Of a stretch of DNA of 64,000 bases, positions 15,375-48,649 are shown in pieces. Made by a program: the position numbers and the translations under genes. Each line of letters opens with the position of its first letter. Position 1 is the stretch's first letter. Source of the stretch: Cocleimonas flava (GTDB taxonomy: Bacteria > Pseudomonadota > Gammaproteobacteria > Thiotrichales > Thiotrichaceae); contig NZ_SMFQ01000002.1 in the NCBI RefSeq assembly GCF_004339015.1, positions 1-64,000 of the forward strand, written 5' to 3'. The notes beneath the pieces are model-generated. The model searched no databases and had not been told where the DNA came from. It worked only from the letters and a program-made list of their open reading frames with translations.

Positions 15375-15904
15375 ATTAGTGATTTTTCATATGACGTTTT
15401 ACCTGGATATTTTTTTCTTGTTAAAGGACTTATGCAGGAAATAACATAATTTGTATGACTCATAGTGTTTTTCCAGACTTTTCACTTCAGATATAGTGAC
15501 TCTATCTCTATTTCGCTCTTTATTTAAGCAGTCTTAGAATCAAGAAAAAGCACCAAACATTTGGTCGATAAACATTAAATAATTTTAATGTTTTCTTTTC
15601 ACTAAAATATCCCAGATAAAAAACACTCATTTAAAATAAAAATAAAATATTAATAATCAATAACTTAATAAAATAAAAACAGAACCTATAAAAAAATATT
15701 TACATTCATTTATAAAACCAAACAACTCAAAAATAGAATATTTTTCGCAAATAATGAATCCAAAAAAAATATCACCGCGTTATTAAAGCCATGACACAGA
15801 CAGTAACAGTTGTCTAAAAACCAAACTAAGGAACATTAACTATTATATAGAAAATGCGAATTATGAATAAATAAAAACGGTATTTTAATATTTTTTAAAG
15901 ACAA
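15375..15904. other. Very AT-rich non-coding region
   Basis: About 530 bases with long A/T runs and no credible gene, lying before the promoter of the mini-protein array. The A tracts could act as UP elements or attract nucleoid proteins. A 15215-15463 minus-strand reading frame overlaps the repeat and looks random. Confidence 0.6.
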
Positions 15905-15910
15905 TATAAT
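15883..15910 (+). promoter_or_regulatory. Candidate promoter of the mini-protein array
   Basis: A perfect TATAAT (15905-15910) is preceded by a weak TTTTAA at 15883-15888, 16 bases away, in an A/T-rich context. It would give a leader of roughly 100 bases that contains a small GCAGAA/TTCTGC hairpin before the first gene. Confidence 0.4.
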
Positions 15911-16020
15911 GATTTCATCAACTCGACGGAGACAAGAAAAAAGTCTGAGATTGAGATTATATTTGCAGAATTTTCTGCTTTATTAAATACCAGATAGATT
16001 AACTTAAAAGGATATAAATT

Positions 16021-16233
16021 ATGAAAACTCAAACTAAAGCAATCATCGCAGGATCAATTTTAACAGCACTTTTTGCATGTCAATCAGCGTATGCTGGTCA
16101 AGATTCTGATCAAACAGTTTACGCAGAACTTACAGCAAATACAGTCGTGACTGATACTTCATCAACGGACAAAGTAAGTTACGACGCACCTACTGTTGAT
16201 AGCCAGTACGATGTAGTTAGCGGTAGAAAATAA
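16021..16233 (+). CDS. Tandem mini secreted protein, copy 1
   Basis: A 70-residue protein with a Sec signal peptide (predicted cut after SAYA) and a mature part of about 45 polar residues. It shares with its two neighbours the patterns GQD-DQTV-AEL, SS-DKV-YDAPT and the C-terminal QYDVVSGRK. This copy alone has a Cys in the signal region (LFACQ), which could be a poor lipobox. An AAAAGGAT ribosome site precedes the ATG. I do not know this family. The small size, strong signals and triplication suggest an abundant exported peptide. Confidence 0.85.
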   Translation: MKTQTKAIIAGSILTALFACQSAYAGQDSDQTVYAELTANTVVTDTSSTDKVSYDAPTVDSQYDVVSGRK

Positions 16234-16293
16234 ACAATCAACTTTTCAAAAAATAAACTAAATATTGATACCAAAAAATTAAAGGATATTAAC

Positions 16294-16500
16294 ATGAACA
16301 CTAAAGCAATCATCGCAGGAACATTACTTACAGCATTATTTGCGGGTCAATCTGCAATTGCAGGTCAAGATAAAGATCAAACTGTTTACGCAGAATTAGA
16401 GGCAAAGACAGTAGTTAGCAACACATCATCTTCTGACAAAGTACGTTATGACGCACCTACATCTGATACACAGTACGATGTAGTAAGTGGCAGAAAATAA
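16294..16500 (+). CDS. Tandem mini secreted protein, copy 2
   Basis: A 68-residue paralogue of the preceding gene with its own AAAGGA ribosome site. The signal peptide ends SAIA, and the mature part begins GQDKDQTVYAEL and ends QYDVVSGRK. It is closer to copy 3 than to copy 1. No Cys is present: the position that is Cys in copy 1 is Gly. The gene lies 60 bases after copy 1, so the three are likely one transcript. Function unknown. Confidence 0.87.
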   Translation: MNTKAIIAGTLLTALFAGQSAIAGQDKDQTVYAELEAKTVVSNTSSSDKVRYDAPTSDTQYDVVSGRK

Positions 16501-16562
16501 ACCCAAACAAACTTTCAATAAATTACGAATATTTATTCAAACAAAATTTAAGGACATTAAAC

Positions 16563-16769
16563 ATGAACACTAAAGCAATCATCACAGCAACTCTATTTTC
16601 AGCTCTTTTTGCAGGTCAAACTGCTTTTGCTGGACAAGACAAAGATCAAACTGTTTTCGCAGAATTAGAAGCAAAGACAGTAGTTAGCAACGCATCATCT
16701 TCTGACAAAGTACGCTATGACGCGCCTACAGTTGATACTCAATACGATGTTGTAAGCGGCAGAAAGTAA
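16563..16769 (+). CDS. Tandem mini secreted protein, copy 3
   Basis: A 68-residue paralogue with signal peptide ending TAFA and the same mature pattern (GQDKDQTVFAEL, DKVRYDAPT, QYDVVSGRK). Even the short spacer before its ATG (AAGGACATTAAAC) resembles that of copy 2, showing recent duplication of a unit of about 270 bases. It is the last gene before a strong terminator. Function unknown. Confidence 0.87.
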   Translation: MNTKAIITATLFSALFAGQTAFAGQDKDQTVFAELEAKTVVSNASSSDKVRYDAPTVDTQYDVVSGRK

Positions 16770-16800
16770 GTTTTAAACTAAAGACTCTCTCTCCTTCTTA

Positions 16801-16832
16801 AAACCCCTGTTTGTTGATTCAAGCAGGGGTTT
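16801..16832 (+). terminator. Rho-independent terminator of the mini-protein array
   Basis: AACCCCTG pairs with CAGGGGTT, extended inward by TTG/CAA pairs, and is followed by TTTTTT. It lies 30 bases after the third copy. Confidence 0.9.
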
Positions 16833-16977
16833 TTTCGTATCTGGCGTATTGATTTAATTTCACAGGGTAGACTTTCACCCAGACCGTTACTTACAACTGG
16901 CATATTGACACGAATAGGTAATCAGGAATTTTGGTAAATCTGGTATAAGCAGAGCAAAGACTGCTCAAGAATAGTAT

Positions 16978-23642: not shown

Positions 23643-23893
23643 GCGATTATTCCAGAAAATGAGAAAACGCAACTAGCCAATACCGTAAATTTGCTACGCA
23701 AAGACACTATAAGCGGATTAAGTGAATAAGACCAGATATCTCATAACACATTCAATAACCTAGTTCTCAGATTGTTCAAAACAGATTTTAACGTGTATTT
23801 AAGCTGTTTTTTACTTACGACTTATAACTGCATCTTAAAATAGTAATACGACGTATATAACCTAAGAAATCAACACTAGATAGCATTTAAAAT

Positions 23894-24478
23894 ATGAAAG
23901 ATATTCGTCGAAACGTTATTAAAGCGGGTGCCGCTGCGCTATTACTACCAATACTGCCAACAACTGTATTTGCCGCTAAAAAGCATAATTATGGCATTGC
24001 GGGAAAGCTAGCCCCTGAGCTTAAAATTTCTGACTGGATTGATGGATCAGGAAAATCTACCTCTTTCAAACTGGCTGACCATCAGGGCAAGTATGTGTTT
24101 ATGGAATTTTGGCAGTCATGGTGCCCCGGATGTCATGCACATGGCTTTCCTACATTGAAAAAGATTTCAGACGCGTTTAAAGGTAGCGAACACTTTACCG
24201 CTATAGCGATTCAAACCACCTTTGAAGGTCATACGGTAAACACGTCAGATAAAATGCGGGAAATTCAAAAACGCTATGAACTTGATATCGTGTTTGGGCA
24301 TGATGCAGGAGACCCAAAATCTCATGGACATCCTAAAACCATGATGGATTATCGCTCTGGCGGTACACCATGGGCGGTACTAATCTCACCTGAAGGAAAG
24401 GTCTTATTTAATGACTTTCATATAAATGCCGAGGGAGCTATTCAATTATTGGAACAAGAAATTAAAAAGCTGGCTTAG
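23894..24478 (+). CDS. Exported TlpA-like thioredoxin-fold protein
   Basis: A 194-residue thiol-disulfide oxidoreductase or redoxin. The redox site WCPGC has Cys77 and Cys80, and a cis-Pro lies in the GGTPWAV segment. The N-terminus (DIRRNVIKAGAAALL) looks like a Tat signal, with twin Arg followed by a hydrophobic stretch and an A-x-A cleavage site near VFA|A. It is therefore likely periplasmic. TlpA-type proteins reduce apo-cytochromes or other periplasmic thiols, but no cytochrome-maturation genes are adjacent. It ends 14 bases from recJ, convergently. Confidence 0.78.
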   Translation: MKDIRRNVIKAGAAALLLPILPTTVFAAKKHNYGIAGKLAPELKISDWIDGSGKSTSFKLADHQGKYVFMEFWQSWCPGCHAHGFPTLKKISDAFKGSEHFTAIAIQTTFEGHTVNTSDKMREIQKRYELDIVFGHDAGDPKSHGHPKTMMDYRSGGTPWAVLISPEGKVLFNDFHINAEGAIQLLEQEIKKLA

Positions 24479-47548: not shown

Positions 47549-48649
47549 ATGGATAGACGTAAAGTACTTAAAGGTGCCATAGCCGGTGCAGCAACAGCTG
47601 CAGCAGCGACAGTCGCAGCACCAGCAGTGGCAGCCAGCCATAGCAAAAAAATGAAAATCAACATGGTTTCAACTTGGCCACGTGACTTCCCTGGTTTAGG
47701 TACAGGTGCACAACGTTTCGCAGAAAGACTCACCAAAATTAGTGGTGGTAGCATGGAAGTTAAATACTATGCTGCTGGAGAGCGCGTTAAAGCGTTTGAC
47801 TCGTTTGATGAAGTTGCTTCGGGCAACTCACAAATTTACCACGGTGCAGAATACTACTGGAAAGGAAAACACCCAGGATTTGCATACTTCACATCTGTTC
47901 CATTTGGATTAACATACACTGAGATGAATGCTTGGATTCGCTATGGTGGCGGACAAGAGCTATGGGACAAACTCGCAGGCGAATACGGTCTAAAAGGACT
48001 TATGTGTGGTAACACTGGTGTTCAAATGGGCGGTTGGTTCCGTAAAGAAATGAACTCTGCAGAAGACTTCAAAGGCCTTAAAATGCGTATGCCAGGACTT
48101 GGTGGAGACGTTTTATCCAAGTTAGGTGCTTCTCCAGTTACTTTACCTGGTGGACAGATCTACGAAAACCTTGTATCTGGAGCAATTGATGCAACAGAGT
48201 GGGTTGGTCCTTGGAATGATAAGATCATGAAGTTCTACGAAGCAGCAAAATACTACTACTACCCAGGCATGCACGAGCCGGGCGCTATGCTTTCAATCGG
48301 CATGAACAAAAAGTGGTGGGATAGCTTGACTGAAGCTCAACAAGGTATGGTTGAAGCAGCAGCATCTACTGAAAATGACGTAATGATGTCTGAATACAAC
48401 GCTAAAAATGGTGAAGCATTAGCATCGTTATTAAAAGAGCACGGTGTAAAACTTCGCGCATTCAGTGATGACATCTATGACAGTTTCGGTGAAGCAGCGG
48501 ATAAAGTATTTGACGATGTTCAAAAACACAGTCCACTAGCTAAAGAAATTCATGAGAGCTTCATAGCAGCACGTACCAATGTTGGTGCATGGGCCAAGAT
48601 TTCTGATCAGGCTTATGTTCAGCAACGTAACAGAGTTTTGGGTCTCTAG
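47549..48649 (+). CDS. TRAP transporter solute-binding protein, TakP-like
   Basis: The periplasmic binding protein of a TRAP transporter, 366 residues. The N-terminus MDRRKVLKGAIAG with an Ala-rich stretch ending APAVAAS is a Tat-type signal. The mature protein has MGGWFRKEMNS, GLKMRMPGLGG (with the conserved carboxylate-binding Arg) and GAIDATEWVGP. The last is typical of the TakP branch that binds 2-oxo acids such as pyruvate with sodium. The exact ligand needs experiment. A hairpin separates it from dctQ. Confidence 0.85.
   Translation: MDRRKVLKGAIAGAATAAAATVAAPAVAASHSKKMKINMVSTWPRDFPGLGTGAQRFAERLTKISGGSMEVKYYAAGERVKAFDSFDEVASGNSQIYHGAEYYWKGKHPGFAYFTSVPFGLTYTEMNAWIRYGGGQELWDKLAGEYGLKGLMCGNTGVQMGGWFRKEMNSAEDFKGLKMRMPGLGGDVLSKLGASPVTLPGGQIYENLVSGAIDATEWVGPWNDKIMKFYEAAKYYYYPGMHEPGAMLSIGMNKKWWDSLTEAQQGMVEAAASTENDVMMSEYNAKNGEALASLLKEHGVKLRAFSDDIYDSFGEAADKVFDDVQKHSPLAKEIHESFIAARTNVGAWAKISDQAYVQQRNRVLGL

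Follow-up and report, generated by a model that had tools for sequence, protein, structure and literature searches.

The DNA analysed here, a stretch of 64,000 nucleotides from Cocleimonas flava (the window), carries at positions 16021-16769 three intact tandem genes, W1, W2 and W3, of 70, 68 and 68 codons according to the open reading frame (ORF) list and its translations (Table 1). Each ATG is preceded by an AAGGA-type ribosome site. By inspection, the N-termini form signal-like segments that end in AYA, AIA or AFA and are followed by GQD, and the mature products predicted from the genes each comprise 45 residues that start with GQD and end with SGRK. The preliminary description of the locus as a triplicated gene, with one ribosome site per copy, signal peptides ending before a 45-residue mature part and a strong terminator downstream, is confirmed in all these features, the terminator being a stem whose stability was equalled in none of 200 shuffles. 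TRF reports a single array with a period of 269, 2.8 copies and 80% matches, and the proteins are 69-87% identical between copies. The array is more than a product of chance, given this identity, the excess of synonymous over non-synonymous change and the presence of eight homologues elsewhere in the genome.

Table 1. Features of the window and places of the peptide family in the genome (window coordinates, unless a contig is named)
Feature	Position	Strand	Remarks
Element 1, putative ECF-like promoter	15755-15785	+	TGAATCC (15755-15761), 16-nt spacer, CGTTATTA (15778-15785); exact-pattern sites; promoter function predicted
Small leader hairpin	15798-15815	+	AGACAGT-AACA-GTTGTCT; 4/500 shuffles as good
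Conserved leader block	15830-15841	+	GGAACATTAACT; alignments A4 and A8
Second AGAC...GTCT hairpin-like repeat	15930-15946	+	By inspection
W1, exported peptide gene, 70 aa	16021-16233	+	Ribosome site AAAAGGA, 16006-16012
W2, exported peptide gene, 68 aa	16294-16500	+	Ribosome site AAAGGA, 16281-16286
W3, exported peptide gene, 68 aa	16563-16769	+	Ribosome site AAGGA, 16550-16554
Intrinsic terminator, 14-pair stem	16800-16833	+	-21.3 kcal/mol, z -6.19
Relaxed element 1 before exported redoxin gene (23894-24478)	23830-23859	+	GCATCT-N16-CGTATATA; kept before the orthologue in G007
CCCCTACTTTRRGGCACTTTTT sites	3477, 4678, 15351, 21625, 40691, 45186, 47327, 57540, 61516
Window array			3 family copies
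Array B	Contig C4, ~88.7 kb		2 family copies
Array C	Contig C4, ~114.4 kb		3 family copies
Array D	Contig C3, ~112.3 kb		3 family copies

Distribution, selection and properties of the family

A search with W2 retrieved 11 family copies at four places in the C. flava genome, and 5 of 57 genomes (its own counted), all of the same genus, gave matches at E <= 0.01. With profile A1, the 12 genomes of the genus divide into five with strong matches (G000, G003, G007, G008 and G011), three with weak ones (G001, G002 and G006; E 3e-4 to 6e-3) and four with none. As candidate homologues of the mature part, the weak matches were dismissed for want of support (hhalign probability 0.1). Outside the genus, 5 of 51 genomes of the taxonomic family gave E values of 4e-4 to 7e-3 with the profile; of these five (G019, G022, G028, G035 and G079), the three inspected by eye, G019, G022 and G028, match through signal segments of other, longer proteins. 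A profile of the mature region, a check proposed in the preliminary description, matched the C. flava genome alone in a sample of 369 genomes of the class, and W2 found no match among viral contigs, plasmids and phages. The initial impression of an unknown family without recognisable homologue also agrees with the libraries: none of the 27 members passed the cut-off in Pfam (best E 0.018, one member) or NCBIfam (best E 0.0073, one member), the three window proteins gave nothing over threshold in PHROGs (best E 0.23) and no solved structure in the PDB reached threshold for the window family. In Rfam nothing exceeded the threshold, NsiR1 appearing at the terminator with 19.5 bits against 39, and the window family is absent from the listed titles and abstract beginnings of papers on Cocleimonas, the C. 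flava genome and small exported or disordered proteins. As judged from these searches and at the sensitivity used, the family occurs in the genus Cocleimonas alone.

In G007, three of the four arrays of C. flava have counterparts flanked by the same genes as in C. flava, with changed copy number, namely two genes against three at the window place, three against three at array C and two against three at array D. One of the two array D counterparts, the first (L033:5973-6177, minus strand), has an in-frame TAG before the last residues and looks like a decaying or shortened copy; the gene with the in-frame TAG (gD1) was excluded from dN/dS and codon counts. G007 also encodes a single distant relative rich in His and Met (L034:5218-5502) in what appears by eye to be a copper-resistance cluster, and this gene may represent a metal-binding branch of the family. 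Synonymous divergence between the two genomes is 0.04-0.16 around array C (L029 versus L031), 0.6-1.5 around the window array (versus L032) and 0.2-2.1 around array D (L030 versus L033), an unevenness that suggests recent exchange of chromosome parts between the two species.

Between the window copies, dN/dS of the mature part is 0.09 (W2-W3), 0.17 (W1-W2) and 0.07 (W1-W3), the last value resting on a dS of 1.99 and being unreliable. Over the 55 pairs of C. flava copies, identity amounts to 0.80 in the signal segment versus 0.55 in the mature part, and mature parts diverge between arrays and between species. Taken together, the dN/dS and identity values imply that the genes are real and that their product, constrained inside each array, drifts from one array to the next; that they form a family and that they are coding is practically beyond doubt. 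The preliminary description had explained the duplication by dosage need or diversification: dosage is favoured by the multi-copy arrays and by codon choice, whereas diversification within the array is not supported, the mature parts being under purifying selection.

Across 19 mature sequences the K, V and Y of a KV-x-Y motif are invariant, while SGRK closes 13 of them and a lysine 14, the remaining five terminating in Q, I or L. The mature parts are acidic (charges and pI are approximate, most members having extra residues in the computed part) and free of cysteine, a residue lacking altogether in 26 of the 27 members. W1 is the one member with a cysteine, found in the lipobox-like LFAC of its signal segment (16021-16100). 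The structure model has low confidence throughout (mean pLDDT 54.5), to which the shallow alignment of only 9 sequences possibly contributes; its mature part contains no long helix, and no repeat or fold points to an assembling subunit. According to this model, the mature peptide is probably disordered.

Codon choice in the family is unusual. Among its NNY codons (N, Y, I, F, D and H), 112 of 176 end in C (0.64); the mean for the 48 window ORFs is 0.32 (sd 0.09), with ORF 47549-48649 the nearest at 0.62. Codon adaptation, indexed on 28 ribosomal-region genes without SecY, RpoA and L17, reaches 0.617 in the whole family (expected 0.523) and 0.641 in the window array (expected 0.521), values as high as these being absent from 1000 draws in either case. 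Since C-ending codons are not enriched in EF-Tu (0.45) and EF-G (0.14), the C-ending index is unvalidated in this organism, and due to their common ancestry the family copies are not independent in these statistics. With these caveats, the codon usage suggests heavy translation of the family genes.

Control elements of the arrays

Arrays at different places have a common leader, which contains element 1. The exact pattern of this element, TGAATCCAA-N13-15-CGTTNYTA, occurs at seven sites in 5 of the 12 genomes of the genus, all upstream of family genes, against none for the reversed pattern. One of the sites lies at a contig end in G003, where the gene is cut, its start reappearing at the beginning of contig C51 (L037). 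Also in G003, a degenerate copy, the eighth, stands upstream of another gene pair. The 16-nt spacer and the CGT box recur in all 11 leaders compared, two of which (G006 and G002) joined the comparison only once the pattern had been loosened in the light of their own sequences. An extra ~160 nt between element 1 and the first gene, in which the second AGAC...GTCT repeat lies, is peculiar to the window array. A hairpin occurs in all 8 leaders compared for it, although in six of them 62-119 of 500 shuffles are as good (the L087 leader having been cut early in this comparison), and the leader alignment supports neither covariation for this hairpin nor a common RNA fold of element 1. That the family has a dedicated, shared control element can be held with great confidence, and its identification as an ECF-type promoter is moderately probable from its layout, a little less so in view of the reversed-pattern control for one-mismatch sites. 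The preliminary description had instead pointed to a promoter-like TATAAT (15905-15910). That hexamer is missing from the promoter-scan list, which for this region holds 5 promoter-like sites against 8.4 expected from shuffles, and the better supported element 1 is, on sequence grounds, the likely true promoter.

In C. flava, element 1 opens two of the four places, the window array and array D, while arrays B and C use a different leader characterised by GGCAGGAAATRACTCCTACC. This leader has five exact sites, each upstream of a gene of array B, of array C or of a G007 counterpart of these, and G002 adds one site with three mismatches; the reversed control gives three sites across the 12 genomes when up to three mismatches are allowed. 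The two leaders imply two dedicated control types for one family within a single genome. Element 1 is absent before arrays B and C, before the copper-cluster relative of L034 and before three G006 genes of L051. As a separate observation, CCCCTACTTTRRGGCACTTTTT is a dispersed, terminator- or REP-like short element that occurs nine times in the window at up to three mismatches where none is expected, and similar sequences stand upstream of array C and of the redoxin gene of G007.

Beyond the family, a strict scan of 307 kb (both strands counted) yielded a single site, at 23831, in front of an exported redoxin gene; the other four of its five sites are those of family arrays. The G007 orthologue of this gene has GCATCC-N16-CGTATCTA 54 nt upstream of its ATG within flanks that differ from those of C. 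flava; it is the sole relaxed match in its 8-kb stretch, and 83 of 20000 shuffles were as good. Judging by these sites, the redoxin gene possibly belongs to the same regulon as the window array. The relaxed pattern, [AC]ATC[CT]-N16-CGT[AT], was fixed after seeing a scan in which a stricter form found G001 only. It precedes a small exported gene by 100 nt in G006, 111 nt in G002 and 136 nt in G001, with 16, 18 and 11 of 20000 shuffles as good, respectively. Small exported proteins with the motif FEQVNAENGYD...NGWV occur in two sister genomes (L041:1059-1716 and L047:1312-1686, both on the minus strand), and proteins of this type, with a single motif or an internal duplicate, have no library match over cut-off.

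The controls set limits to these readings. Within 150 nt upstream, the relaxed pattern matches in 2 of the 48 window ORFs (the redoxin gene being one of them) and in 1 of 33 ORFs of L119. With one mismatch, element 1 has 10 further sites in three genomes against eight for the reversed pattern, which gives no sign of a wide regulon; eight of the nine sites inspected lie inside ORFs and the tenth repeats the sequence of one. The ninth, located in G011 216 nt before an AhpC/TSA redoxin gene, was rejected, as a terminator-like hairpin intervenes. Accordingly, a single relaxed site proves little, and the weight falls on conservation and on the family leaders.

Nature of the peptides and competing explanations

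The layout of element 1 can be compared with that of known ECF promoters. In the literature, the EcfG promoter is given as GGAAC-N16-CGTT (PMC7083833), that of PSPTO_1043 as TGATCC-N16-CGTA with gcATCC-N16-CGTA among the sites listed (PMC5507510) and that of Shewanella RpoE2 as TGATCC-N16-CGTA with mapped start sites (PMC4336711). RpoE/ChrR-type regulons (Shewanella RpoE2 and Pseudomonas syringae PSPTO_1043) share with element 1 an ATCC box, the 16-nt spacer and a CGT box, and the redoxin gene with its similar site recalls the periplasmic peroxidase of the Shewanella RpoE2 regulon (PMC4336711). However, the -35 box is TGATCC in those promoters and GAATCC (window) or GCATCY (relaxed) here, with only ATC[CT] in common, so that the relation is one of likeness and not of membership; moreover, the main targets here are small exported peptides, unlike in RpoE/ChrR-type regulons. 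The EcfG general stress promoters have the N16 spacer and the CGTT box, but their -35 box is GGAAC and they belong to alphaproteobacteria, whereas the present host is a gammaproteobacterium.

The best explanation, still tentative, is a genus-restricted family of abundant, stress-induced envelope peptides, whose regulator and function we infer. Oxidative or envelope stress would release a candidate ECF sigma factor, which would drive two arrays (window and D) from G[AC]ATC[CT]-N16-CGT[AT]. Gene amplification, good ribosome sites and favoured codons would then provide much of a Sec-exported, acidic peptide of ~45 residues, which would build up in the periplasm or at the cell surface under oxidative stress of the envelope. 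There the peptides would act as protective, non-enzymatic partners through their conserved KV-x-Y-x-AP and C-terminal SGRK motifs, such a stress-protective or binding role in the envelope being conceivable but short of probable. Directly visible in the sequence are the genes, the family, the purifying selection, the common control element and the unusual codon usage, while export, promoter identity, induction, disorder and the protective role are deduced.

Several alternatives bear on regulation and abundance. If element 1 were an operator or an mRNA leader element of another dedicated regulator, the peptides would fall outside any sigma-driven stress response. The confinement of the exact element to family genes fits this proposal, as do a conservation that runs on into the leader and near matches elsewhere that are not in excess, yet two conserved boxes at a fixed 16-nt distance reproduce the published ECF layout (PMC5507510, PMC7083833 and PMC4336711), and RNA structure in element 1 lacks covariation support, so that the proposal is rated as somewhat improbable. 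In the leader on C4, 3 of 28 predicted pairs change on both sides, in a set of three sequences of which two are nearly identical. It is likewise rather unlikely that the products are structural surface peptides, exported in abundance as subunits of an extracellular layer or matrix and controlled by growth or surface contact and not by stress: multiple copies, favoured codons, export and two different control types would suit such subunits, but the model displays no repeat or fold of an assembling subunit, and the ECF-like promoter layout and the redoxin gene with a similar site point elsewhere. Sulfur globule proteins, for their part, have glycine- and aromatic-rich repeats.

Other alternatives concern the fate of the peptide. 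Small, exported, multi-copy products that vary between species might be pheromone- or bacteriocin-like, serving as signals or antagonists released to the medium; this is very improbable in view of signal segments that, judged by eye, are of the ordinary A-x-A type and not double-glycine leaders, of bacteriocin models none of which scored over cut-off, and of neighbours that vary by array, among which no exporter/immunity pair was seen by eye. The bacteriocin-like product suggested in the preliminary description loses its footing on the same grounds. The murein lipoprotein Lpp is very small and abundant and has a C-terminal lysine. The window family resembles it in being very small, probably abundant and often terminated by lysine, and the lysine and SGRK ends counted above would fit peptides linked to peptidoglycan. 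Such a linkage is nevertheless extremely improbable: unlike in Lpp, the lysine is not conserved, five sequences ending in Q, I or L; 26 of the 27 members lack a cysteine for a lipid anchor, the single one lying within a signal segment; and no coiled coil is predicted, the mature part of the model being without a long helix.

Changing cargo and significance

A further reading, quite unlikely as it stands, is that of a fixed delivery cassette with changing cargo, in which an ECF-type promoter and a signal peptide would persist throughout the genus and the exported peptide behind them would be exchanged. As cargo, the window would carry GQDxD...SGRK, G003 and G008 would carry ...VNR, and G001 and G006 would carry FEQVNAENGYD..., whose mature part shows no detectable kinship with the window family. 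Such a system would have its counterpart in the genes for animal venoms and antimicrobial peptides, where the pre-regions are conserved and the products vary.

Small exported stress paralogues as such are of a known kind. What is new is a genus-restricted family with its own ECF-like promoter, together with a sign that the same promoter type stands before an unrelated small exported cargo in sister species. If this holds, a lineage-specific family missed by protein libraries would be traceable through its control DNA, and Cocleimonas-type marine bacteria would possess a class of abundant exported stress peptides, so far undescribed, with its own promoter signature. This would open both regulator and function to direct testing and help to understand how disordered peptides, once exported, serve the Gram-negative envelope or get swapped in it.
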